From: Pseudobdellovibrio exovorus JSS
GTDB taxonomy: Bacteria; Bdellovibrionota; Bdellovibrionia; Bdellovibrionales; Bdellovibrionaceae
DNA: 64,000 nt
Direction: 5' to 3'
NCBI RefSeq assembly: GCF_000348725.1
Contig: NC_020813.1
Location: 1,960,248 to 2,024,247 of the forward strand
How positions within the stretch are numbered: position 1 is the stretch's first letter; each line of letters begins with the position of its first letter. Below, piece by piece: positions 37,667 through 55,570 of this stretch. Made by a program: the position numbers and the translations under genes. The notes under the pieces were generated by a model. The model was given only the letters and a program-made list of their open reading frames with translations. It was not told the DNA's origin and ran no database searches.

Positions 37667-39046
37667 CTAAAAAGGCGCTCGGGTTAACAAGAGTTTCAAA
37701 TCATCATTCGTTAAGTAAATACCCGCTCCGAAGAAGTTCGACTGAGCACCTTTTTTATCCAAGATATCGTTGTATCCCGCTGTCAGATAAAGCCCATAAA
37801 ACAGACGATAGTTCAAAGTGGCACGCATTTGTAATTTTTCAAAATCATAGAAATCCATGCCCGCTTTTAAGTTGCGACCTAGCATGTGATAATCGATACC
37901 AAATCCACCTGTATTTTCAAAAAGACCTGCTCTAAGAGTCCAATCGAAAAAGTTTTTGGCAAAATAAACCGTGAATGTCGATTTGCTTTTAAATGTTTTA
38001 GTTTCGGTGTACGAGTTCCCACCGCCACCACCCGGAGTGATATTGTACTCTGTTGTTTCCACAACTCCCGCAGGATCCGTTACTACACCAACATAGTAGT
38101 AGCGATCCAGACCTGGTTGAATCGTGATACCTACGCTTGTACGAGTTCCTTTAGCTTCACTTAAATAGTATCCGTTAAAGTCTACGCCAGTTTCGATACG
38201 CTCAGCCGCTCCCACCAGACCACTTAAACCTTCAATCGCTGAAGATACATCTTCAGCTGTTTGTTCGTCTGAAATCAACTTACCAATCGTACCTTGACCA
38301 TTATTAATTTTAGTTGTGATTTCTTCGATGTTTTTCATCGAATTATCTAAGCGGGACATCGTGTGCTTCCACGTAGATTTAAAGCCCTGTTCGCTTTCAT
38401 CATTGATCAATTCATCTAATGTAGAGGTGATGCTACCCACCTCGGCGATGATCTGACTGATTTGTTCTTTATTTTCACCAGTCATCTGAGATAAATCAGC
38501 CGTTAACTTTTCAATATTCAAGACGATACGGCCTAAGACATGTTTATCCGTACCATTTTCAGAAACGGCCTCTTGTAGATTCTTAGAGACTTCTTTTAAT
38601 GATCCGGCCAATTCAGTGATTTGCCCCATGACATCATCAAGGCCACCGCCTGATTTAACATTCAGGATTTGACCGCCATCTTCCAGTTCCGGATCACCCA
38701 CATTACCGGGGAAAATTTCGACACTTTTATCACCCAAGATCCCGTTCGCCTTCATCGCCACCGCAGCAGAACGAGTTAAGCTGACATCGGATTTAACAGT
38801 GACATCGATACGAGCCTGACCATCCTGCAAACGAATATCTTTAATGACACCTACTGGAATACCAGCGGATTTAATGGCAGAGCCTTTAACTAATCCTTGG
38901 GCACTTGGTAAAAGAAACCATGCTTTTTTAGAGCGACCCAAATAACTTGGATCATCGCTTACTTGCATAGACATAAAGGCGATCAAGCCGCCGATCAGAA
39001 CTACTAATAGTCCAACTTTAAACTCTGGCGATTTTAAAAAACTCAC
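37667..39046 (-). CDS. MCE-domain (MlaD-like) protein with C-terminal barrel-like domain
   Basis: 459 residues. An N-terminal membrane anchor (about 11-28) is followed by one MCE domain (about 35-130; SAGIPVGVIKDIRL and GILGDKSVEIFPG). Residues 135-285 are a long helical, Gln/Glu-rich region. Residues 290-459 alternate aromatic and polar residues in strand-like segments (TSVGITIQPG, YYYVGVVTDP, FTVYFAKNFFDW, YGLYLTAGY) and end in Phe, as an outer-membrane barrel does. MlaD alone is about 180 residues, so this is an MCE-barrel fusion. It begins with GTG, preceded by GGAG. Together with MlaF and MlaE it forms a lipid ABC transporter. Confidence 0.88.
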   Translation of the reverse strand: MSFLKSPEFKVGLLVVLIGGLIAFMSMQVSDDPSYLGRSKKAWFLLPSAQGLVKGSAIKSAGIPVGVIKDIRLQDGQARIDVTVKSDVSLTRSAAVAMKANGILGDKSVEIFPGNVGDPELEDGGQILNVKSGGGLDDVMGQITELAGSLKEVSKNLQEAVSENGTDKHVLGRIVLNIEKLTADLSQMTGENKEQISQIIAEVGSITSTLDELINDESEQGFKSTWKHTMSRLDNSMKNIEEITTKINNGQGTIGKLISDEQTAEDVSSAIEGLSGLVGAAERIETGVDFNGYYLSEAKGTRTSVGITIQPGLDRYYYVGVVTDPAGVVETTEYNITPGGGGGNSYTETKTFKSKSTFTVYFAKNFFDWTLRAGLFENTGGFGIDYHMLGRNLKAGMDFYDFEKLQMRATLNYRLFYGLYLTAGYNDILDKKGAQSNFFGAGIYLTNDDLKLLLTRAPF

Positions 39047-39074
39047 TCGGGAATCTCCATCATGTTGTCAGTTC

Positions 39075-39839
39075 TCAGTGTTTTATTCCTTTATCAACAA
39101 ATCTTCTAACCAACTCGTTATCCGATTTATAAAAATCATCTGCCGTTCCTGATAAAAGAACCTTCCCCGCATCCAACATCACAATATAGTCCGCGATTCG
39201 AAAGGCAGCTTTCAAATCGTGGGATACCATTATAGATGTAGTTCCAGGACGAGCCTGGTGCGTTTCTAGGATTAAATTATCTACCATTTCCGTCAGAATG
39301 GGATCTAATCCTGTCGTCGGTTCATCATAGATCAGGATTTCTGGATCAAGGGCGAGCGCACGAGCTAGACCAGTACGCTTCTGCATACCACCCGAGATCT
39401 GACTTGGTAGTTTATGATTATGTTTCGGATCTAACCCCACCATCGTTAATTTTTCTTGGGCTATCTTTAAAACCTGCTCTTTTGAAAGATGGCGACGATG
39501 CTCTTCTAAGGGGAAGCATACGTTTTCTAATACAGTCATATCATCGAAAAGTGCGGCACTTTGGAAAAGCACTCCATAGTTACAACGAAATGCAGTCAAG
39601 GCATCATTATCTAAAGAGTTCAAATCAGTCCCTAGAATCGACACATGACCAGAGGTCGGGCGATACAATCCTAACATGTGCTTCAACATCACACTTTTAC
39701 CCGTACCAGAGAAACCAATAATAGAAGTCAAACTCCCTTTAGGAATTTTTAAATCAATACCTTTTAGGATGAACTCATGTCCATCGAAACTCTTTTTTAC
39801 ATCATCTAGAACTACGGCGTATTCTTTTGCTGTGCTCAT
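39075..39839 (-). CDS. mlaF: MlaF-like phospholipid ABC transporter ATPase
   Basis: 254 residues. Walker A GFSGTGKS near residue 43, signature ISGGMQKR, Walker B LIYDEPTTGLDP and the H-loop SHDLKA. The YGVLFQSAALFDDMTVLENV segment is typical of MlaF. It drives lipid movement with MlaE and the MCE protein. Its ATG shares one base with the mlaE stop. Confidence 0.95.
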   Translation of the reverse strand: MSTAKEYAVVLDDVKKSFDGHEFILKGIDLKIPKGSLTSIIGFSGTGKSVMLKHMLGLYRPTSGHVSILGTDLNSLDNDALTAFRCNYGVLFQSAALFDDMTVLENVCFPLEEHRRHLSKEQVLKIAQEKLTMVGLDPKHNHKLPSQISGGMQKRTGLARALALDPEILIYDEPTTGLDPILTEMVDNLILETHQARPGTTSIMVSHDLKAAFRIADYIVMLDAGKVLLSGTADDFYKSDNELVRRFVDKGIKH

Positions 39840-40687
39840 TAACCAATCCCTGTCATCACGTAGAAAATACGAATTAAATTCATCAAGAAGTAATCTAGGA
39901 TAATGATGCTCACCATACTGATCACGACTCCGCGGTTAGTGGCTTCACCCACACCTTTTGCTCCGCCTGAGGTATTAAATCCTTTGTAGGTACAAATAAC
40001 GGCGAAAACCAATCCGAAGATCGCAGCTTTAATCAAACCTTCATTAATATGACGAACTTCAACTGTCGCTGCGATTTTAGACATGAAAACCGCGTGATCT
40101 AAACCAACCAATTTAGTACACAAAATCCACGACCCAAACATCGCCATGAAATCGAACAATGCAGTGAGCAGCGGCATACAGATAATCGCCGCTATCAAAC
40201 GTGGAGCAATCAAATACTGTTTCGTATTCACACCCATCACATCTAACGCATCCATTTGTTCATTCACACGCATCGTTCCCAAACGTGCCGCCATAGCTCC
40301 ACCCGCACGGGCGGCTACGATCAAACCCGTTAATACCGGACCTAACTCGCGTGAAATCCCCAAAGCCACTGTCGGACCAACAAGATCCACCGCATTGACA
40401 AGTTTAAATCCTAAGTAAACCTGAAATGATAACGCCAAACCGGTAAAGATACTTGTTAATGTGATAATTCCTACGGATTGATTTCCGATGAATTCCATGT
40501 GCTTTAAAACTTCGCCATAGCGATATGGTTTTACAAATAGCAATCGCAGACTTTGCCATGCAAAAATCGTAATCAGTCCAACTTCACGCACACTCGAAAC
40601 AAAACTATCTACAACAACAGAAATAGTTGTATCAATTTTTGCAGCCCATCTTTGTATCCAAGTGGTTTTAACGTTTTCTTCACTCAT
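39839..40687 (-). CDS. mlaE: MlaE-like phospholipid ABC transporter permease
   Basis: 282 residues. The MlaE fold is seen from the amphipathic N-terminal helix, the central GLIVAARAGGAMAARLGTMRVNEQMDALDVMG motif region and about five membrane helices to the end. The Mla-type complex keeps lipid asymmetry or exports lipids to the outer membrane. The ATG overlaps the alr stop (ATGA). Confidence 0.95.
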   Translation of the reverse strand: MSEENVKTTWIQRWAAKIDTTISVVVDSFVSSVREVGLITIFAWQSLRLLFVKPYRYGEVLKHMEFIGNQSVGIITLTSIFTGLALSFQVYLGFKLVNAVDLVGPTVALGISRELGPVLTGLIVAARAGGAMAARLGTMRVNEQMDALDVMGVNTKQYLIAPRLIAAIICMPLLTALFDFMAMFGSWILCTKLVGLDHAVFMSKIAATVEVRHINEGLIKAAIFGLVFAVICTYKGFNTSGGAKGVGEATNRGVVISMVSIIILDYFLMNLIRIFYVMTGIG

Positions 40688-41865
40688 GTTTTTTTCAATC
40701 CTCTAAAGTGTCTTGGCACGCGCTCTCCGACAGACGTCAGCGTTTCCCACACAATGGTATTTGTATGCAGCGCCTGTTCCGTTGCCGACAAAAAGTTGTT
40801 CTTATCATCGTAACCAAAAAGAATAACTTCCTCTTCAACCCATTGTTCCGGAGTTGTTTTTTCCACAACATCCGTCGCATCTAACATTAAAAAATCCATA
40901 CAAACACGTCCCACGATAGGAACGCGTTCTCCGTTCAATAGGGCATATCCCCGATTTGAAACTAAACGATGAATCCCATCCGCATAACCAATGGGAACAA
41001 CAGCTATATACGATGGCCGCTGAGCTACCCATGTAGAGCCATAGGATACCGAATCACCTACTTCAAGACGTCGCATATTATTCACAACGCTTTTCAAAGA
41101 CATCACAGCCCGAAACTCTGCTGGCCCCTGTAATTCATTTCCTGTGTAGCCATACAACATAAGACCCGGGCGAAATCCCCACTTCTGTTGCAGTAATAAC
41201 TTATTAGGATTTTCAATCTGAGGACCACTTTGCAACTGTGCAAGGCCGACTATACCACCCGTATTCAAAAGATGTGCGTACACATCCATATCTTTGAAGT
41301 AATCAAACACCTGTGAAAAAACTTGAGTTTGACGAGCAGACTGTCCTAAAGCGGACGCCGCATCTTCACCAGAGGTAAAATGAGTTAGTACCGCTTTAAG
41401 TTTCAACTTTTTAGAATTTGAAAAATACTGACGAAGCTTTTCGGCCTCGCTTGGAGCAAACCCTAAACGACTCATCCCCGTATTGAACTTCAGATGAATT
41501 TTCATAGGCTCGTCGGCTACCGCTTCTAGATGTTGAATTTGTTGCCACGAACTCACGACAGGAGTCAGTTGATACTCCATAATTTTTTCAGCACCACGCT
41601 TATCAAAGCCACGAAAAACTAAAATATCTGTTTTAATACCAGAAGCTCTTAATAAAAGGCCTTCTTCAATCAGACAAACACCTAAGACATTAGCCCCTTC
41701 TTTTTCAAGGGTTTTACCGATTTGAACGTCCCCATGGCCATAGGCATTGGCCTTAATCATAGGACATATAAATCGATCATCTGCCGCAATCTTTTTAATC
41801 TGGTTCCAATTAAAGATCAGATTCTCAAGATTAATGTCGGCATAGGTCCGTCTGAACATCTCCAT
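40684..41865 (-). CDS. alr: Alanine racemase
   Basis: 393 residues, the normal length. The PLP lysine is Lys38 in MIKANAYGHG, and the second catalytic base Tyr lies in VSYGSTW near residue 268. Further PLP contacts are LSHxT-like HFTSGED and PIGYADG. It supplies D-alanine for peptidoglycan. It lies 7 nt after the degenerate GGDEF gene and overlaps mlaE. Its placement between signalling genes and a lipid transporter is unusual, since alr usually sits near dnaB or tatD. Confidence 0.97.
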   Translation of the reverse strand: MEMFRRTYADINLENLIFNWNQIKKIAADDRFICPMIKANAYGHGDVQIGKTLEKEGANVLGVCLIEEGLLLRASGIKTDILVFRGFDKRGAEKIMEYQLTPVVSSWQQIQHLEAVADEPMKIHLKFNTGMSRLGFAPSEAEKLRQYFSNSKKLKLKAVLTHFTSGEDAASALGQSARQTQVFSQVFDYFKDMDVYAHLLNTGGIVGLAQLQSGPQIENPNKLLLQQKWGFRPGLMLYGYTGNELQGPAEFRAVMSLKSVVNNMRRLEVGDSVSYGSTWVAQRPSYIAVVPIGYADGIHRLVSNRGYALLNGERVPIVGRVCMDFLMLDATDVVEKTTPEQWVEEEVILFGYDDKNNFLSATEQALHTNTIVWETLTSVGERVPRHFRGLKKT

Positions 41866-41872
41866 AGCTAGC

Positions 41873-43330
41873 TCACGTATTGACCTGAAAGTCAGGTTGG
41901 TGATCTTTAGGAGCTTTATAAATGCAAATCTTGTCTCCGCCTTTAGTTATAATAAAATCTAAAGCTTTGCGAGCTGAATCATTTAGACTTTCTGCTGTCT
42001 TAGTTAACGAAGGATATTCGCTAATACCTTGGCTGACAGTTACAACAAAACCCGCCTTAGAAAAACTTTCGCCTTTTAGGCGCTGACGTAATCGATCTGC
42101 ACGCAAAGCTGCGCCTTTTCTATTACAGTTGATCAGCACCAAAGAAAATTCATTTTCGGCTGTTCGACAAATGTAATCTGGTAAACGGCTGGTTTGTTTA
42201 ATGACATCAGCCACCTTTTTGATGATCTCGTCACAGAAAGCTTTGCCATGACTGACTTCAATTTCGCGAAAGATATCAATCGCGACTTTAACTACAGAAA
42301 TAGGAGCAAATGTTCTTTTCGATCTATCGATTTCTTTATCTAAAATTCTTTTATAAAAAAGCTGATTGTAAAATCCAGTCAAAGGATCTTCCACATCTAG
42401 ATTTTGCGGCTGAGCTTCTAGGGTGATCAAATTGTACACCAAACTCATAAGTGAAAAATCTTCCGCTACCTCTGCAGAAATATCTTGAGGCGTGATCAGC
42501 AGGCCTTCAATTTCATTCTTTAAAAGTAATGGCATAACTTTCAGTGTATCCACACCCCATTTGGCTTTTATATATTGCAAAAAGCTTTCAGGATATTCAC
42601 CCAATAAAATTTTGTCGTTAAAATCTGATTGAGAGGATGGAATTTTATAAGACAGGCCTTCAACCCACTCGTCTGGCATATTCTGACTTGAAACAGAAAT
42701 GTAAGTCTGAATAGAGCTGACGTACTTTAAGAAAGCCCATGACTGACTAGCTGTCTGCCTAAAGAACATTTGAACCAGTTCTTCTTTGCTTTCAGCAGCA
42801 CGATATTCGGCTATGCGTGTTTGAAAAGGTCGAGCCTGTGGACCCATCTTCTGCTTTTCATTTTCTTCTTGCAGGTATGCCAGCTCTCCGGCTGTGCCTT
42901 TATAGGTATTGAACAGTTGTTCATTTTGGTAAAGACGATAGAGCGTTTCACAGGTCTGATCTACAGACATACAAACTTGATCTACGACGACACCTTCGGC
43001 GCGGTTAAAATACTGAACCATGTTGTAATCGCGATAGTCATTCAATTGCGATAGCACTTCTGACTCAGCTAAACAAAGCATTCGTATTTCAGAAGACGAC
43101 TCGAGTACTTTTTGGAAAACCTCAGAAAGAGGAGTCACCAAGGCCGCTTGATCCAAAACAATCACATGGGGAGCTGCACTTTGTACACGTTGAAACATCT
43201 CTTCAAAGTCCGAGAAAAAATGCACATCGTATTTCGCCATTCCAAGAGCAAACTTAAGACGACTTCCCAAATCTGCATCTTGAGAAAAAACGAAAACGCC
43301 AAATTCAGGTGCTACTTCACGGATATTCAT
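41873..43330 (-). CDS. Degenerate GGDEF protein with receiver-like and sensor-like N-terminus
   Basis: 485 residues, cytosolic. Residues 1-120 have a receiver-like order (VFVFSQDAD, HVIVLDQAA with Asp60 at the phospho-acceptor position), but the loop after it is not typical. Residues 180-305 look like a GAF-type sensor. The GGDEF domain (about 315-475) keeps the DPLTGFYN opening and VTVSQGISEYPS, but the active-site motif is AENEF (391-395). The Glu is kept while both Gly are lost, so cyclase activity is doubtful. It more likely binds a nucleotide or a partner. It overlaps the sensor gene upstream by 4 nt. Confidence 0.9.
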   Translation of the reverse strand: MNIREVAPEFGVFVFSQDADLGSRLKFALGMAKYDVHFFSDFEEMFQRVQSAAPHVIVLDQAALVTPLSEVFQKVLESSSEIRMLCLAESEVLSQLNDYRDYNMVQYFNRAEGVVVDQVCMSVDQTCETLYRLYQNEQLFNTYKGTAGELAYLQEENEKQKMGPQARPFQTRIAEYRAAESKEELVQMFFRQTASQSWAFLKYVSSIQTYISVSSQNMPDEWVEGLSYKIPSSQSDFNDKILLGEYPESFLQYIKAKWGVDTLKVMPLLLKNEIEGLLITPQDISAEVAEDFSLMSLVYNLITLEAQPQNLDVEDPLTGFYNQLFYKRILDKEIDRSKRTFAPISVVKVAIDIFREIEVSHGKAFCDEIIKKVADVIKQTSRLPDYICRTAENEFSLVLINCNRKGAALRADRLRQRLKGESFSKAGFVVTVSQGISEYPSLTKTAESLNDSARKALDFIITKGGDKICIYKAPKDHQPDFQVNT

Positions 43331-44826
43331 GATTTTTCTGGCCGCCGTACATTCACTTTAAATTCATCTACCTGAAAATTCTTTTTTTCTAATTTAAAAT
43401 TAGGCTTATCCACAGGGGCACCCATTGAAGACAAGCTGATCTTTTGTGGAGTCAGGTTTTTCGCAATAAAATCATCTTGATCAGCCACAACTGATTCTTG
43501 TGCCGGTTCGGATAAGGGTTCATTATCAAATTCATCCAAGGCCAAAGCTCTTTCAATATCAGATAGATCAATCTTTTCGTCCTGAAGAGCTAGAAATTGA
43601 TCTTCAGCCAAGTCGCGTTTGATCGTAGGTTCTTCATCCAAAATATCTTGCACGTCTGCGGGATTGGCTTCTAGTTCGTATGAAGACACTGTTGAAGACA
43701 TGGTGACCTCTTCTTCTGCCTCGTCGGCCTGACTTTCAATCGAATAAAAACCTGTCGGTGGTTTTTTGTAAGTGACAGAATCTTCTTTTACTAGAGGCAC
43801 GGGAGTTGCTGCTGCATCTTCATCCAGAATTTTCTTTACTGATGCTTTTTCTGGCATGGGAGTTTCTGCTAACTGCACAGGAGATCTGTCTAAAGTCAGC
43901 GGATTCATCATGGCCGCTTTGCCTGTCATCCGCCCCAATGTGTCTTTGTAGATTTGTTCGCGCTCTTGTTTTTTGTAGCGCTCGATACGTCTTTCTAATG
44001 GATCTAAGCTGTAGAACAGGACAGCCAACAAGATACAACCGAAACCTGCGATAACTCCGACAACCGACCACGGAACCGCAAAGCCACCGATCACTTTACT
44101 TTTCAAGGCATAGGAAATGGAAACGAGGTTAGTTCCCGCCACTTCCTCTTTAGCCACGATGTATTGCTGACCCGAAGATAGACGTGTTTCATCTGTTAAC
44201 GTGGCGATATAGTCAGGCTCTGTATGCGCGGCTAACATATTCTCAGTTGTCGCCAGTAAAGAGGTACTGCGAATTCCGCTACCTAAATCGAAAAACTTTT
44301 GGAAGTAATCAGCTGCGCCGACCACTGCCAGTTCCTGAGCGCCTGAGGTTTTAAAACGTAAAATCAAAAACTTAGAACCACCACGATCTTGAAAGAGCTG
44401 TACCAATATCGGTCGATCAGCCTGAGCGCGATTGATTGTCAGAGCTTTATCTAAGTAGGATGTATTCCAACGCTCAGCTATCGTTCCCGAGCGCGCGATC
44501 ATTTGCTGCACATGTGGCTTTCCAGAAACCATGTCCACTCTTGCGATAGCGAAGAAAGGATCTAATTGAACCCAATTGATATTGGCTTCATCCATCTGTA
44601 GCTCATACGACGAAAGCGTGTTTCGCAACTGTGAAAGCTGAGTGGCCACACCTGTTTTAAGAAGTCCTACCGAGCTTCTTAAATTGGTCTGCATCGAAAA
44701 AGCTTTTTCATCCCGAAAATAGTCGTTGAGCTTGTAAACCACTGTGGCCAACAAGATAAAAAGAACAATTGAAATTTTTAAGACAAGTCCTGTCTTATTC
44801 GATAGTTGCGTCCGTGCTTTATTCAC
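43327..44826 (-). CDS. Two-helix membrane sensor-like protein without output domain
   Basis: 499 residues. A first membrane helix (about 12-33) precedes a periplasmic domain of about 215 residues that has a Cache-like layout, then a second helix (about 250-277) and a cytosolic tail of about 220 residues rich in Asp, Glu, Pro and Lys, without HAMP, kinase, GGDEF or methyl-accepting features. It looks like a signal input half whose output protein is encoded by the overlapping degenerate GGDEF gene. The start is GTG; the ribosome site is weak. A promoter should lie in the 126 nt between this gene and nadB, but I cannot place it. Confidence 0.85.
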   Translation of the reverse strand: MNKARTQLSNKTGLVLKISIVLFILLATVVYKLNDYFRDEKAFSMQTNLRSSVGLLKTGVATQLSQLRNTLSSYELQMDEANINWVQLDPFFAIARVDMVSGKPHVQQMIARSGTIAERWNTSYLDKALTINRAQADRPILVQLFQDRGGSKFLILRFKTSGAQELAVVGAADYFQKFFDLGSGIRSTSLLATTENMLAAHTEPDYIATLTDETRLSSGQQYIVAKEEVAGTNLVSISYALKSKVIGGFAVPWSVVGVIAGFGCILLAVLFYSLDPLERRIERYKKQEREQIYKDTLGRMTGKAAMMNPLTLDRSPVQLAETPMPEKASVKKILDEDAAATPVPLVKEDSVTYKKPPTGFYSIESQADEAEEEVTMSSTVSSYELEANPADVQDILDEEPTIKRDLAEDQFLALQDEKIDLSDIERALALDEFDNEPLSEPAQESVVADQDDFIAKNLTPQKISLSSMGAPVDKPNFKLEKKNFQVDEFKVNVRRPEKS

Positions 44827-44952
44827 TCTTATATTCTAGGGTTTTTTTTACCCATGAATCAACCTTTTCAGCTAATTTAATTTTGGACAAACTGACTTTT
44901 TCGCCCTATTTTAGAAGTTCTTTTTAAGAGGCCATAGAACAAGCGATAGAAT

Positions 44953-46524
44953 ATGAAAAAAGAAACTGATGTTGTCATTATAGGCTCTGGCATCGCGGCG
45001 CTGGCTCAGGCTCTGAAGATCTCTTCAGACAAACGCGTTCTTATTTTAACAAAAGACAAAGTTCCATCGACAAATAGCTCTATGGCTCAGGGTGGAATCG
45101 CTGCCGTTGTAGACAAAGGCGATAGTTTTTCTAGCCATATTGATGACACCTTAACCGCCGGAGCTGGACTCTGCCGCGCTGAAGCGGTGCGCAATTTCGT
45201 AGAACAAGCTCCCGACCGCATCCAAGAGCTTCTGGACTGGGGAGTTAACTTCGACACGGAACTTACACGTGAAGGCGGCCACTCAGTTCGCCGCATTTTA
45301 CATCACGAAGATCAAACCGGAGCCGAAATCCACTCTAAACTTTGGCAGCAGGTTAAACAGCGTTCGAATATCAGTATTTTAGAAAATCACTTTGCCATTG
45401 ATTTGCTTGTGAACAAAAAAATTGAACAATCCTTAGTTGGCCCTACCGGCATTGTGGGAGCCTACGTTCTAGATAAAACGAGCGGCGAAGTTAAAATTAT
45501 CAAATCCACGGCCACAATCCTTGCCACCGGAGGCGCGGGTAAAGTCTATCTTTACACGTCCAATTGGAGCGGCGCCACTGGGGACGGAATCGCAATGGCT
45601 TATCGCGCGGGAGCCCGCGTTTCTAATTTAGAATTCATGCAGTTTCATCCCACATGTCTTTACCATAAGGACTCACGTAACTTTTTGATCAGTGAAGCTC
45701 TGCGCGGCGAAGGCGGCGAGCTGATTAACTCTCAAGGTGAAGCCTTTATGAAAAAGCATCACCACATGGGCTCACTGGCACCAAGGGACATTGTCGCTCG
45801 CGGTATAGATGCTGAAATGAAAAAATCAGGTGAGGCCTGCGTTTACCTTGATATGACTCATAAACCGGTAGAGTTTTTAAAATCTCACTTCCCTCATATC
45901 TACAACAAATGCCTTGAGTATGGCATTGATATGGCCACGCAACCTATACCTGTAGTTCCCGCCGCCCACTATCTCTGCGGCGGAGTTGTCACGGACATCT
46001 ATGGAAAAACTGATCTTCAAGGACTTTTTGCTATCGGTGAAACCGCGTGTACAGGGTTTCATGGAGCCAATCGTCTTGCCTCGAATTCACTGCTAGAATG
46101 CCTTACCATGGCCCATAACTGCGCTCTTCATTTACAAGAAAACTGGGCAGAATTAGAAGCGGCCACGCAACTGGTTCCCGAGCCTCAACCATGGGAGCGG
46201 CCAGAAGAAACTGACTCTGATGAAATGATCGTGATCTCGCACATGTGGGAAGAAATTCGCCGCTTGATGTGGAACTATGTCGGTATCGTGCGCTCTACAA
46301 AGCGTCTGCAACGCGCCCAACATCGCTTAAAAAATATCAAAACTGAAGTAAAAGAGTATTACTCCAACATGAAGGTTCACGCCGACATTATCGAGCTTCG
46401 CAATATCGCTATTGTTGCAGATTTGACAGTCGAGTGCGCTCTGCGCAGACACGAGTCAAGAGGCATCCACTTTTCTTTAGATTATCCAAAGACCGAAGAC
46501 CAGAGTCGAGATACCATTCTGTAA
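44953..46524 (+). CDS. nadB: L-aspartate oxidase
   Basis: 523 residues. The FAD dinucleotide-binding motif is VVIIGSGIAALAQAL at 7-21, with NSSMAQGGIAAV, RTADGTG-like GATGDGIAMAY, and LEFMQFHPT. The His-Arg active-site region is in TPxxH-like VVPAAHYLCGGV near 337 and the GHGANRLA-like FHGANRLASNSL near 364. It oxidises aspartate to iminoaspartate in NAD synthesis. NadA and NadC are not encoded here. The gene lies divergent from the long operon and is followed by a hydrolase gene. Confidence 0.95.
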   Translation: MKKETDVVIIGSGIAALAQALKISSDKRVLILTKDKVPSTNSSMAQGGIAAVVDKGDSFSSHIDDTLTAGAGLCRAEAVRNFVEQAPDRIQELLDWGVNFDTELTREGGHSVRRILHHEDQTGAEIHSKLWQQVKQRSNISILENHFAIDLLVNKKIEQSLVGPTGIVGAYVLDKTSGEVKIIKSTATILATGGAGKVYLYTSNWSGATGDGIAMAYRAGARVSNLEFMQFHPTCLYHKDSRNFLISEALRGEGGELINSQGEAFMKKHHHMGSLAPRDIVARGIDAEMKKSGEACVYLDMTHKPVEFLKSHFPHIYNKCLEYGIDMATQPIPVVPAAHYLCGGVVTDIYGKTDLQGLFAIGETACTGFHGANRLASNSLLECLTMAHNCALHLQENWAELEAATQLVPEPQPWERPEETDSDEMIVISHMWEEIRRLMWNYVGIVRSTKRLQRAQHRLKNIKTEVKEYYSNMKVHADIIELRNIAIVADLTVECALRRHESRGIHFSLDYPKTEDQSRDTIL

Positions 46525-50449: not shown

Positions 50450-53400
50450 ATGAGAAAACAAATGCTTTTTATAACAAGTCTGATGGTGACCGCTACTGTC
50501 ATGAGCTCTTGTACGAAGACGCGTAAAGCAGAACTGCCGGAATCACAACAGGCCAGTGTCTTTGCTATTAGTGAATTTGGTGAAACGTTAGAAAGCTCTC
50601 AGTATAAAGTGGCGGCGCGCTCTACGGATACAGCTCGCGGCAACAGTATTCATGCTGTTGATCTTGAGGATCAAAACCTTTTAAGCTCACAGGATGTCTT
50701 AGTACCAGCTCGTTTGAAATTTATGTTTCAAGATCTTCCTTTAAGCCGCCAATCCGCAGCTCAATTTGAAGTGACGTTCTCGGTGGATAAGGAATACATC
50801 ACAGCTTATAAAATCTCGAAAAATCCAGCAGAGCTTAGTGTTGTAGAAAAATCCATCGCTTTCACGGCGCGGGAACTCCAACTGGCTTTGCGTAGCTCTC
50901 GTCACTCAGGCGTGCAAGCACAAGCCTTTGACAATGACAGACGCTCTGCGGTTCAGGAAAAAGAAAGCATTAAAAAAGGACGTATCGCCGGTACACTTCT
51001 AGTCCCTCTTTTCAAATATAAAATTGAGACCTACGGAACTTTAACGCGTACAAAAAATGATTTAAAAGAAGAGACGTCTCGTCTTGAACTTCAACGTACA
51101 GAGTGGAAAGAAGCTACGCATATTCAAATTTCCCCTCGCACTGATAGTCGTCAGGTGATTGGACAAAACATCAACCAGACGAAGCAACTTCGCCAGATTT
51201 ATTCCGAGAGTGAAATTGACAACCAGTTACTCACTGCTGAAGAGCTTCAAAGCCGTCTTTCTATAGGCATGCGCTTTATCGAACCAGATAAAAAGGTCTT
51301 CACGCGTCTTGATGCTGAATACATGCGTATTTACGAAGTCACTCAGACATCTCAATTGAACGAAAACCAACTACGTCTTTTACGCAATCACGCAGGGAAT
51401 CAAGAGATCCTCTCTTGCCAAGATCCTGCTGTACGGGCTCATATGACCTCTGCTGATGCCGACTGTGTTTTGATCTTAAAAGCCAATATCCCTGTCTCTT
51501 ATAAAACAGCTCGTCTTGCTGAAATCGAATCGGGTATTTCAGGCAGTGCCATCGAGTTTGAAAATGTCGACCGCTCACGCTCTATTGGGCTTGTTGAAAT
51601 TCAAGAAAATATAGCTGCAGCACAAGTTGATATTTCGGGAGCATTAGATCCCAACAGCACTATTAAATTAGCGGACATTCAAGGTGAGTTTTTCTACCGC
51701 CGTACATTCGAGTCGGCATCTAATATGTTCCTAGGACGCACAGGAACATCCGGCGATATGGCGATTGTGCGCTTTGAGTTAGAAGACAATCGCATTGTGG
51801 TTCGCAACCAACAATCCCTTATCAAGTACACAGGGCAAGGTGCAAAAGACCGTGAAGAGCTGATGTCATTCCCAGTGAAATATATTCGCATGAGTAATAC
51901 GGATGCACGCGGGGCCACTCTCACGATTCCGAAACCTCAAGAGACCACAAAAGAACAGGCTGAATACGCCGTCATTGATTGGACTCGCAATACAGTACCG
52001 GATTCGACGTCTCCGCTGGCTTTCTATGCGGGTGGCAGTTGCTTTGCGGCCACTTCATCATTGCGTGTGACTGACACAGATATGCGTCTGGCAACAGATG
52101 GTGTTTTAAACTACTCACTCAGTGGTTCTTACACTGTACGTCCTGATCTTTCCTGCGTTCCTGTAAAAGATGTGAACTCGGCTTATTGGGGCGGTTCCTA
52201 TCAGTTCAACTTTAATGTGGTAGAACGTATCTCGTTCTTAAAACACACAAAACCTGAATCTGATACGCAGTTCACGGCCAATATTTCACACATGGCGCAG
52301 GCTGCCTTTAACTACGGAGTCTTTACATTAGCTGATCGCGTAACTGGAAATGGTTCGCTGATGAATCGTGATGGTAGCGAAAAGTACATGCCGATTCTTC
52401 ACGACTTCCGTAATGGAAAAAAATTAAAATACTACGTCGGTGGATTAAATAACTCCGAAGTAACCAACCCTGAACGACGTGAGTTGATCATTTCAGCTAC
52501 TCGCCAAGTCATTGATGAGTGGAACAAAACTCTTCGCTATGCCTTCCGTGGCACACCACTAGAAAGACGCGGAGACTATGTTGAGATCGTCATTGATGAA
52601 GGAGACAATACAGGTCATTTAGGTGATCTTGATCGCAACTATATCTGGTTCCAAGAGCTGATCGCAGAAAATGGTCTTTTAGGTGTGGCTCAACCTGCGG
52701 CCAACCCACGTTCTGGAACTATTCAAGCGGCGAATGTTATTGTCTACTCTGGAAATACATTTAACCAAACGGAAACTCTGTTAAAAATTAACGAGATCTC
52801 ACGCGCTTATGAAAAACAGCTCGAGTCAGAAAAAGGCAGACTGAAATCTTTAGCCTTAGCTCAGCAAGAAGTTATATTCTCGGCTGATCTTATAGACTCC
52901 TTAACAGAAGCATCAGCCAACGGGGCTAACACGACTTCAAATAATGCCGTTACTTCTTCTGCAAGTCAGCGACAGATTTTATCACCCCTAATGAACAGCT
53001 CACTGACAAGTGACGCCTTAAAACTTGCATTAGATGGAATTAAAACTCCAAAAGCGCAGATGAACTTCAGCCGTATCGTATCCCGCGATATTTTGCAGAA
53101 TGCTGTTAAACCTCAGAAAATTGAATACGCACTTAACAATCAAACTTTCCTGAAAAAGTTAGTTGAAATTTCCGCAAGCAAAAAATCAGCTCATCCCTAC
53201 GAATTAGAGCTAGAAGTCAACAAAGCCTTCATTCAATATGGTGGTTTAGACGAAAATACAAAACAGCTTTTAAGCCGACGCTCAGAAATGTTAGATGCGG
53301 CTATTCAGTTTGATAATAACTCAAAACATAGACCGGGATGTTTCTTATACTCTAGAAATGATATCAATGATGCGGCTTTAGTTTTAGACAAAGACCCACA

Positions 53401-55570
53401 TAAGAACTTGATGTTGAATTTCAAGAAAAACATCATGAGCACATTGTCACATGAGTTAGGGCATGCATTTGGATTGATGCATAACTTCAAAGCCTCTACA
53501 GATAAGGCGAATTACGAATTTCCTGAAGACAAAGACCGCCCAACAGGACGTAACTACTCGTCTATCATGGACTACATAGCAGATATTGATATGCACTACG
53601 CAGGACCGGGGCCTTATGATGCCCATGCTGTACGCGCAGCTTATACGGGTTTAGTTGAAATCAATCCGACTGTGACAGCCAGTGATGAACAGTTCCAGCA
53701 ATTAGGTCCTAAAGTTAGTTCGCAAAATCTAGTGAGCATAGAAGATTTAGCAAAAGTGGTTGCGCTTAAAAAGAATCAACCGGCTTCTGCAGCCTCTTAC
53801 GTCCACATGACTAAAGATACGTTGAATACTCTTGGTCTTACAAAATACTACGCTCAATGTGATGACACAGGAGTTTCTTCAAGTGCACTTTGTACCCGCT
53901 TCGATACAGGTGGAGGCGCACAAGAAATCGTAGATAATTTAATACAAGATTATCATCGTGGTTATATCAATCGCAATTACGTGTACGACAAGATTATCTT
54001 CGGTGGTTCGCAAAAAGTACAAGTGATCACCCGTAATATTTCTTTATTCCAAAATATCCGTTCGTTCTTGGATGAAGCTATTATCAACCTCATCAATGGA
54101 ACCGGTTTATCAGAGGAGCAAAGTTCACTTGTAGTAAATGATCAGTTGTTGGCAGCCCTTAAAGGCTATCAATTCTTCCATGAATTACTACGTACTCCTG
54201 AAGCCAATAATGTCTCGTTAATGCCAGAAAGACTTGCGACTGGTGAAATCGGACCTAACCCACGCCTGATTGCTATTCCATATACTTACAAAAATCCAGA
54301 AGGCAAAGAGGTTCGCGATGTTAAAGTTCTAGAAAGTCGATCTACACGCGATGTTTTAATGTCTCGTGATAAAATAGATACGATCGGTATTGCTTATGAC
54401 AGAATCTTTTCTATGTTGTTCTTGATGCAGTCAACAGCAGCTCCGAACGCTCTGGATGCTCAAAGCAGTAATATCTCGTACATCAATTTTGAACAGTGGT
54501 TCTTGGGTATGTCAGACCCAACAGACTCTTTGACATTAAATACAGTTTTAGGTGTCTTGATGAATAATCTTAAAGCTGGATTTTTCTCTCCATCAGGGGG
54601 ACTGTTAAACACGTCTATTCCAGTACAAATCAGTCGTGATCTATCGAATCAAACAGCCCTTGCCACTGTGATTGGACTAGCTGAATCTAAATGGTCAGCA
54701 CATGATCCTTTTTCAGATATGTTCAAAATAGCACGCTCTTCTTTAGCGAATGCACCGAAAGATCGCTTCAACTCAGTTAAGCCGGGACAAGATCGCTCTT
54801 TATCTGATACACGTGTGTACTATGCTCCTCAAAATGCATGGGGTTCATCTGTATTAGTAAATGCGGCCGCTCGTAATGAGTTTTACATGACTCAACGTGA
54901 AGTTCTGTGGACTGGCATGGCGCAACTTCTAGAGGCAGACTCTAAATACCGACAGCCGATCAATGCACTGATCGCAGCCGCTTGTAATGCCGACATGAAT
55001 AGTGATGCGTGCAAAGCGGCTCGTCAAAAAAGTTTAGATCAGTATCTACAAGAAAATCCGGCGATTGCTGCAGCAAAATCTGAAGCTGACGCGAAAGCCA
55101 ACGCTTTTGTCGCTCAATTACGAGAACTAAATGCTGATGGACTCCTGCTAAGTAAACGTCTTGATACGGCCGAATCTGAAGTGAATTTAGAAAAGCAAGT
55201 CGAGATGGTACGTTCGGCTCTGACTTTAGCTGATCAAGTGATGCGAGCAAAGACTACGATTGAAGCGCAAAGCCCTGCTAACGCAGCCATGGTGGCTTCT
55301 ATGATTCGCTCTAGCTTTGCTGAGTTGAAAACACGGAACGAATCCCTAGCGCAACTGCAATTAGTCAGCACAGCCTACGACTTTTTGTACAATGCTACGG
55401 AAGAAGTCGAAGTTAAAGTACCGGGGTCTCGAGCTATTACAGCCAGTACAATTGTGTCATGGTTAGCTCCTGTAAACCGCATTGAAAATGAGCTTTCGCA
55501 TCAACAGGATGTAATTGAAAAGTTATCTTTGTTTTCAAGTGCTGTTGATCCGGACCTTGTTAGCCCATAA
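50450..55570 (+). CDS. Giant lipoprotein metalloprotease (metzincin type)
   Basis: 1706 residues. The lipobox VMSSC (Cys21) is followed by a long unrecognised part. The zinc motif HELGHAFGLMH (1001-1011) fits HExxHxxGxxH of metzincins, and a Met-turn SSIMDY lies about 30 residues later; the extended region is like that of zinc-dependent lipoprotein proteases with DUF5117/DUF4953-type domains. A region with a Gly-Asp-rich repeat (VIDEGDNTG) and a helical C-terminus completes the protein. AAGGAGTATGT precedes the ATG. It is probably held on the outer membrane, with the barrel protein before it and an ABC transporter after it. Confidence 0.88.
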   Translation: MRKQMLFITSLMVTATVMSSCTKTRKAELPESQQASVFAISEFGETLESSQYKVAARSTDTARGNSIHAVDLEDQNLLSSQDVLVPARLKFMFQDLPLSRQSAAQFEVTFSVDKEYITAYKISKNPAELSVVEKSIAFTARELQLALRSSRHSGVQAQAFDNDRRSAVQEKESIKKGRIAGTLLVPLFKYKIETYGTLTRTKNDLKEETSRLELQRTEWKEATHIQISPRTDSRQVIGQNINQTKQLRQIYSESEIDNQLLTAEELQSRLSIGMRFIEPDKKVFTRLDAEYMRIYEVTQTSQLNENQLRLLRNHAGNQEILSCQDPAVRAHMTSADADCVLILKANIPVSYKTARLAEIESGISGSAIEFENVDRSRSIGLVEIQENIAAAQVDISGALDPNSTIKLADIQGEFFYRRTFESASNMFLGRTGTSGDMAIVRFELEDNRIVVRNQQSLIKYTGQGAKDREELMSFPVKYIRMSNTDARGATLTIPKPQETTKEQAEYAVIDWTRNTVPDSTSPLAFYAGGSCFAATSSLRVTDTDMRLATDGVLNYSLSGSYTVRPDLSCVPVKDVNSAYWGGSYQFNFNVVERISFLKHTKPESDTQFTANISHMAQAAFNYGVFTLADRVTGNGSLMNRDGSEKYMPILHDFRNGKKLKYYVGGLNNSEVTNPERRELIISATRQVIDEWNKTLRYAFRGTPLERRGDYVEIVIDEGDNTGHLGDLDRNYIWFQELIAENGLLGVAQPAANPRSGTIQAANVIVYSGNTFNQTETLLKINEISRAYEKQLESEKGRLKSLALAQQEVIFSADLIDSLTEASANGANTTSNNAVTSSASQRQILSPLMNSSLTSDALKLALDGIKTPKAQMNFSRIVSRDILQNAVKPQKIEYALNNQTFLKKLVEISASKKSAHPYELELEVNKAFIQYGGLDENTKQLLSRRSEMLDAAIQFDNNSKHRPGCFLYSRNDINDAALVLDKDPHKNLMLNFKKNIMSTLSHELGHAFGLMHNFKASTDKANYEFPEDKDRPTGRNYSSIMDYIADIDMHYAGPGPYDAHAVRAAYTGLVEINPTVTASDEQFQQLGPKVSSQNLVSIEDLAKVVALKKNQPASAASYVHMTKDTLNTLGLTKYYAQCDDTGVSSSALCTRFDTGGGAQEIVDNLIQDYHRGYINRNYVYDKIIFGGSQKVQVITRNISLFQNIRSFLDEAIINLINGTGLSEEQSSLVVNDQLLAALKGYQFFHELLRTPEANNVSLMPERLATGEIGPNPRLIAIPYTYKNPEGKEVRDVKVLESRSTRDVLMSRDKIDTIGIAYDRIFSMLFLMQSTAAPNALDAQSSNISYINFEQWFLGMSDPTDSLTLNTVLGVLMNNLKAGFFSPSGGLLNTSIPVQISRDLSNQTALATVIGLAESKWSAHDPFSDMFKIARSSLANAPKDRFNSVKPGQDRSLSDTRVYYAPQNAWGSSVLVNAAARNEFYMTQREVLWTGMAQLLEADSKYRQPINALIAAACNADMNSDACKAARQKSLDQYLQENPAIAAAKSEADAKANAFVAQLRELNADGLLLSKRLDTAESEVNLEKQVEMVRSALTLADQVMRAKTTIEAQSPANAAMVASMIRSSFAELKTRNESLAQLQLVSTAYDFLYNATEEVEVKVPGSRAITASTIVSWLAPVNRIENELSHQQDVIEKLSLFSSAVDPDLVSP

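Follow-up and report, generated by a model that had tools for sequence, protein, structure and literature searches.

The 64,000-nucleotide (nt) stretch of Pseudobdellovibrio exovorus JSS (B. exovorus below) that we analysed (NC_020813.1, positions 1,960,248 to 2,024,247; hereafter the window) carries two overlapping minus-strand open reading frames (ORFs), the first of which, starting with GTG, encodes a membrane sensor and the second, starting with ATG, a protein with a degenerate GGDEF domain (Table 1). An earlier interpretation made from the letters alone (the sequence-only reading) had described a two-helix sensor with a periplasmic part and an acidic tail but no enzymatic module, overlapping by 4 nt a GGDEF protein whose motif had turned into AENEF, and this description held. 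Two hydrophobic helices (near residues 15-33 and 253-271) with about 210 residues between them precede a long tail, neither Pfam nor NCBIfam detected an enzyme domain in the sensor, the junction reads ATGA, and AENEF lies within the Pfam GGDEF domain. The tail is acidic over residues 280-450 (40 D/E against 19 K/R), while a slight basic excess (7 D/E, 10 K/R) marks its final 49 residues. The alr gene lies 7 nt downstream of the AENEF gene and is followed by mlaE, an ABC ATPase gene and the gene of an MlaD protein. Beyond what had been noticed before, we found a receiver-like N-terminus in the AENEF protein, its orthologue CdgA, the histidine kinase ancestry of the sensor, the membership of alr in the cluster and a conserved motif at the C-terminal end of the sensor.

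Table 1. Features of the sensor-cdgA-alr cluster, in window coordinates
Feature	Position	Strand	Basis
Membrane sensor, sensor histidine kinase remnant, 499 residues	43327..44826	-	HD100 counterpart is a 750-residue kinase
First transmembrane helix, about residues 14-34	44725..44787	-	model helix 12-41; hydropathy of homologues
Periplasmic domain, residues 38-250	44077..44715	-	dCache_1 in 8 of 43 homologues; no Pfam match in the window protein
Second transmembrane helix, residues 253-271	44014..44070	-	hydrophobicity, structure model
Disordered tail, residues 280-499, replacing the lost kinase domain	43330..43989	-	alignment, identity by region, model
DEFKVNVRRP motif near the C-terminal end, residues 487-496, putative docking peptide	43339..43368	-	alignment of homologue tails
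CdgA orthologue, degenerate REC-GGDEF protein, 485 residues	41873..43330	-	domains, synteny, alignment
Pseudo-receiver domain, about residues 9-120	42971..43306	-	Asp60 kept, acidic pair and Lys lost; model
GGDEF domain, residues 315-458	41957..42388	-	Pfam, E 3.8e-22
I-site RLPD, residues 382-385, inhibitory/receptor site for c-di-GMP	42176..42187	-	sequence alignment
Degenerate active site AENEF, residues 391-395	42146..42160	-	sequence alignment
Alanine racemase gene alr, third in the conserved cluster	40684..41865	-	synteny

The central part of the GGDEF domain reads RLPD-YICRT-AENEF, i.e. an intact I-site (RxxD) stands five residues ahead of a ruined active site. The window genome encodes five GGDEF proteins, and the four others keep a canonical GGDEF or GGEEF. 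The AENEF protein departs from the GG[DE]EF of active diguanylate cyclases and shows the combination of ruined active site and intact RxxD that marks the PopA class; together with the syntenic sensor-cdgA-alr cluster, this is also the hallmark of the CdgA group. At its N-terminus the receiver (REC) signature is incomplete, the positions of the acidic pair, the Asp and the Lys being occupied by SQ, D and R, so that the Asp alone is kept. Pfam Response_reg did not match the window protein and matched 11 of 45 homologues; the structure model of this region nevertheless has a predicted local distance difference test score (pLDDT) of mostly 74-87 and a target-normalised TM-score of 0.87 to Spo0F. 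A GAF-like middle domain found no Pfam support in 45 members, and we leave this part of the protein unassigned. It may be noted that two adjoining GGEEF proteins of the same genome (L002 and L004, 410-416 kb, open frames of 402 and 382 residues) lack the I-site Arg, with KEDE and ADDE in place of RxxD.

Degenerate GGDEF receptors are already known as a type, and so is CdgA. B. bacteriovorus HD100 has five GGDEF proteins, of which CdgA (Bd3125) carries GVNEF with RxxD five residues upstream, is without cyclase activity, binds cyclic di-GMP (c-di-GMP) with a Kd of about 2 uM and sits at the prey-facing, prey-invading pole; deletion of cdgA slows prey entry and abolishes plaques (Hobley et al., PMC3271064). 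Two-hybrid contacts of CdgA with RomR and Bd2492 are reported (PMC3983030), RomR appears again as its partner (PMC11025332), Bd1971 is a further contact (PMC6717892), and published work places CdgA downstream of DgcB and within the polar hub. The CdgA of PMC8846402 is a Vibrio cholerae protein. One sampled genome, which we infer to be that of HD100, encodes exactly five GGDEF proteins, at 345, 706, 1351, 3029 and 3641 kb, positions proportional to Bd0367, Bd0742, Bd1434, Bd3125 and Bd3766; the fourth, at 3029 kb, has RTNDVTCRTGVNEF, in agreement with the published CdgA, and within that genome it is the protein that the CdgA family profile matches over its full length. As the GGDEF set, the positions and the motif of this genome fit published CdgA, the AENEF protein is, by this comparison, the orthologue of B. 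bacteriovorus CdgA (Bd3125). The two share gene neighbours (sensor and alr) and the degenerate GGDEF with RxxD five residues upstream, but differ in that HD100 has GVNEF and beside it a full-length kinase of 750 residues with its His kept, whereas the kinase domain has gone from the window. A scan of the genome contigs with the single protein gave three loci, of which one belongs to an unrelated organism and encodes a GGDEF protein that aligns with part of the domain only. In the Bdellovibrio literature searched we found neither Bd3124 nor Bd3126, nor a kinase or membrane partner of CdgA, a stepwise kinase loss or the tail motif; no kinase is named for Bdellovibrio CdgA in the available portions of PMC3271064 or PMC6733907.

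That the AENEF protein could have remained a diguanylate cyclase despite its atypical active site is suggested by VCA0965, an AGDEF protein that makes c-di-GMP (PMC3974145). However, VCA0965 differs from the consensus at the first residue only, while AENEF differs at three of five, including the metal-binding Asp replaced by Asn, and the active-site motif drifts among relatives (AENEF, GENEF, DENEF, AANEM, GVNEL). The inactivity published for the GVNEF orthologue agrees with the receptor or scaffold role that the sequence-only reading had given to the degenerate domain, and we regard persisting cyclase activity as scarcely credible.

The genomes sampled number 116 for the order, 98 for the class and 144 for the phylum, the counts beyond the first set of 59 being drawn from loci of genomes with matches and of part of those without. 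The first sequence search recovered the membrane protein in only 22 of the 59 related genomes, but looking by position, directly upstream of each cdgA, revealed a two-helix protein at the same place across the order. Histidine kinase boxes are visible in 43 aligned upstream homologues, among which Pfam recognised HATPase_c in 31, HisKA in 19, dCache_1 in 8 and HAMP in 5; the 750-residue protein encoded next to cdgA in HD100 has His, N and G boxes. The window sensor lacks both the HisKA His and the HATPase_c boxes, yet shares position, topology and tail with the kinases of its relatives, and is thus, judged by descent, the remnant of a decayed sensor histidine kinase. The earlier view of a sensor built without output has to be given up in favour of a kinase that decayed. 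For the periplasmic part the window protein gave no dCache_1 match and the sensor model was weak; structure models of both proteins had been built from three-row alignments and were poor, with only the receiver part usable, and a fold search with the weak sensor model, which returned no match at E<=0.001, was not used.

Co-occurrence of the two genes, proposed with the sequence-only reading as its check, was supported: wherever CdgA was complete and an upstream ORF was found, that ORF directly precedes cdgA (100 of 100 genomes), and in two further genomes with complete CdgA (G020, G102) no upstream ORF was found. A profile built from the 43 sensors matched 68 of 72 other upstream ORFs at E<=1e-3, beside cdgA in any state, and missed those of G110, G112, G114 and G021. 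The same gene order recurs across the order, the class and two other families of the phylum, and the arrangement is therefore not a matter of chance. Among reduced genomes, G091, G092 and G098 are without a match to CdgA and also without a match to alr, G100 is a further genome without a CdgA match, and G097 has neither sensor nor cdgA beside alr. In one genome (G047; L103, 4420-6846) a second kinase-like gene, coding for 808 residues on the other strand, is inserted between cdgA and alr.

The loss of chemistry in this operon is graded. An intact GG[DE]E[FY] is found in 9 of 102 complete REC-GGDEF proteins, the same nine keep the full receiver signature, and all of them adjoin intact kinases (families f2, f3, f5, f8, f11, f12, f16); the remaining 93 have neither. 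The I-site, on the other hand, is retained in 101 of the 102, the exception, G056, having KxxD. An intact kinase stands next to 35 of 87 degenerate proteins with an aligned partner. In the family of the window, 34 of the 41 kinases from outside its genus are intact, many of the 41 coming from one well-sampled genus (g6), against 0 of 13 within it. Within that genus HATPase_c is kept without the His region in six genomes (G001, G003, G006, G007, G009, G011), eroded in three (G002, G004, G013) and, like the rest of the kinase domain, gone in four (the window, G008, G005, G012). We took the intact form as ancestral because it also occurs in a different order within the class and, within the phylum, in further families (f11, f12, f16). 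Parsimony on a four-gene tree required no fewer than 3 active-site changes and 11 kinase changes; since this tree was midpoint-rooted, we infer rather than observe the order of events.

When the tails were aligned at their right ends, a terminal motif D-x-[FY]-x-V-x-[IV]-R-[RK]-P became apparent, which relatives with an intact kinase carry as well. Just two columns, Arg494 and Pro496, are conserved in at least 90% of the 43 sensors, and both lie at the extreme C-terminal end; conservation reaches beyond the pattern positions, with Val at -2 in 50 of 71 and Asp at -6 in 37 of 71. In comparison with two congeners (L114, L115), identity of the window tail is 63% and 49% for the final 49 residues and 22% and 29% for the middle. 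The strict pattern matches 5.9% of shuffled tails and replaced a first, loose one that matched 31%. A second short motif, D-L/I-x-D/E-I-x-x-L/A-L-x-L-D, was noticed by eye in mid-tail in family f1 (e.g. residues 420-432 of the window sensor).

These observations bear on whether the pair is decaying without function, as a two-component system that is turning into pseudogenes. Degeneration has indeed reached receiver, active site and kinase alike, and part or all of the system is missing from several reduced genomes. The frames in the window are nevertheless open, no stop in the cdgA frame was reported in the 13 congeners searched (the gene of G012 is cut by the contig end), the I-site is near-universal, the end of the tail is better conserved than its middle, and deletion of cdgA in HD100 has the predation defects given above (PMC3271064). 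We consider functionless decay very improbable.

The motif was then related to the state of CdgA. From 122 loci we dropped 10, seven for which no upstream ORF was found (G020, G028, G047, G049, G053, G097, G102) and three others (G117 for masked bases, G114 because its upstream ORF is not a homologue, G021 for an incomplete contig), so that 112 remained; on inspection G047 has both a sensor with the motif and a cdgA gene, which had escaped notice through an over-long start call. Of the 102 tails beside a non-truncated CdgA gene (99 complete, 3 ending at a contig edge), 90 have the strict motif, as against none of the 10 beside a truncated or missing CdgA. In three of these ten CdgA is absent and the sensor kept (G045, G093, G099), in five the CdgA receiver is missing (G054, G106, G111, G113, G115), and in two the middle and part of the GGDEF half are cut (G016 and G034, g4). 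The sequence-only reading had implied that homologues should not regularly occur without each other; sensors do stand without CdgA in three genomes and beside a truncated CdgA in seven, but precisely there the motif is gone. Fisher's test gave p 1e-8, ignoring kinship. On the four-gene tree, which was computed without G125 and G141, with 18 of 21 of G060-G080 left out against over-sampling, and with G099, G113 and G115 outside it for having too few of the four genes, there were 6 independent pairs, in 5.9 of which on average the motif changed in the same direction and in 0 in the opposite one; a sign test over these pairs gave a median p of 0.03 (range 0.03-0.06). Moreover, the tail after the kinase measures 59-429 residues in 77 genomes with CdgA against 18-36 residues in five in which CdgA is absent or lacks REC. 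Such loss of motif and tail together with CdgA is as expected if the tail exists to hold CdgA. In G016 and G034 (L213, L214), where CdgA is without middle and I-site, the sensor tail is 92-127 residues long and without the motif.

Two further explanations have to be weighed here. Four-nucleotide overlaps are common in bacterial operons, and alr, an unrelated enzyme, belongs to the same cluster, so the overlap might do no more than couple the translation of two separately acting proteins; this seems improbable, given the ancestral relation of kinase and regulator and the loss of the motif with parts of CdgA. Alternatively, the tail motif could bind a third partner, for instance a protein of the polar hub (RomR, SgmX) or a membrane complex, sensor and CdgA being simply co-expressed members of a larger assembly. 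A polar hub exists at the same pole, as CdgA binds RomR and Bd2492 (PMC3983030) and Bd1971 (PMC6717892), and the g4 CdgA retains its receiver although the motif is gone. The motif was, however, lost with CdgA parts in all ten genomes, among them G045, which has a congener (G118) with both, and we hold a third partner to be unlikely, though it deserves more weight than the other alternatives.

Taken together, we suggest, with a probability of roughly two in three, that the pair is the working remainder of a two-component system in which docking through the tail replaced phosphotransfer, leaving a split, chemistry-free c-di-GMP receptor. Of the split two-part receptor envisaged in the sequence-only reading, the co-occurrence of the genes stands and a receptor role is published for the orthologue (PMC3271064), while the contact through the tail is suggested by the co-loss. 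The ancestor would have combined a membrane histidine kinase (periplasmic sensor, HAMP, HisKA, HATPase_c and a disordered C-terminal tail) with a response regulator that was a diguanylate cyclase of REC-GGDEF architecture and had a product-binding I-site. Once freed from phosphotransfer the kinase may have decayed, until its domain vanished in the closest relatives of the window. Retained throughout are the I-site and, in the sensor, the periplasmic part, the second helix and the tail that ends in the motif. The tail would dock on CdgA, for which the receiver region would be needed, and hold it at the membrane; a periplasmic signal would be coupled to a c-di-GMP-binding complex, the messenger itself coming from other cyclases (in B. 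bacteriovorus, DgcB), and the output would feed the RomR/SgmX hub that controls prey contact. Docking, tethering and periplasmic control are inferred, and so is the extension of the published function to B. exovorus, a predator of the epibiotic type, which stays outside its prey. More tentatively, and perhaps with slightly less than an even chance, all three chemistries (autophosphorylation, phosphotransfer and cyclic-dinucleotide synthesis) may have been lost and the docking contact alone kept, a terminal peptide on the flexible sensor tail holding the pseudo-response-regulator, such that periplasmic signal and I-site-bound c-di-GMP would be read together by a tethered, enzyme-free receptor at the attack pole.

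Several points weigh against this interpretation. The co-loss is a correlation, and a third partner lost with CdgA would look alike. A single-gene Alr tree gave only 3 supported pairs, 2.9 in the same direction, and was replaced by the four-gene tree because it was too weakly resolved. The motif pattern was written after the alignment had been seen. G110, with complete CdgA, has no motif, G044 nothing recognisable, and only near variants (VKIRTSK, VKITRPK, VQIPRP and IRPV among the ten) occur in G015, G029, G030, G040, G123 and five members of f10. In g4 a kept receiver goes with a cut GGDEF half and no motif; presence of the receiver does not by itself predict the motif. Since an intact kinase accompanies 35 of the 87 degenerate proteins, a kinase may still phosphorylate something else. 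Lastly, both structure models are of low quality except in the receiver (mean pLDDT 45.9 and 44.4).

To our knowledge, PopA of Caulobacter has no linked membrane sensor with a docking tail. It is otherwise similar, being a protein of the response-regulator type turned c-di-GMP receptor, with a polar role, a degenerate GGDEF and an intact I-site (PMC3509222). SgmT of Myxococcus likewise unites a kinase and a degenerate GGDEF receptor in one signalling unit and is sequestered through its I-site (PMC3509222). SgmT is, however, one soluble protein with an active kinase, whereas the window has two proteins, a membrane sensor and no kinase. The C-terminal pentapeptide of chemoreceptors, which tethers CheR, is also a short conserved motif ending a flexible receptor tail, but with a different sequence and partner, and the comparison concerns the way of working only. 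Pseudokinases of the DivL type are membrane kinase homologues kept without classical chemistry; DivL retains the kinase domain that is deleted from the window sensor. The analysis names the adjoining sensor, a full-length kinase in HD100 and kinase-less in the window, as a candidate membrane partner for CdgA, and offers its 10-residue motif as a test target. As the motif is present with non-truncated CdgA and absent with truncated or missing CdgA, the docking claim is directly testable. The locus also provides a natural graded series, with an intact kinase/cyclase pair at one end and a pair devoid of chemistry at the other, that can reveal which contacts outlive phosphotransfer.

Around the pair (37667-46524), much of the order Bdellovibrionales retains the arrangement nadB (divergent) / sensor - cdgA - alr - mlaE - mlaF - mlaD. 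The lasting neighbours of the c-di-GMP receptor are thus a racemase for wall precursors and a lipid transporter of the Mla type. Elsewhere in the window (50450-55570), a 1706-residue protein with a match to Met-zincin (DUF4953) is possibly a large protease of this predator.

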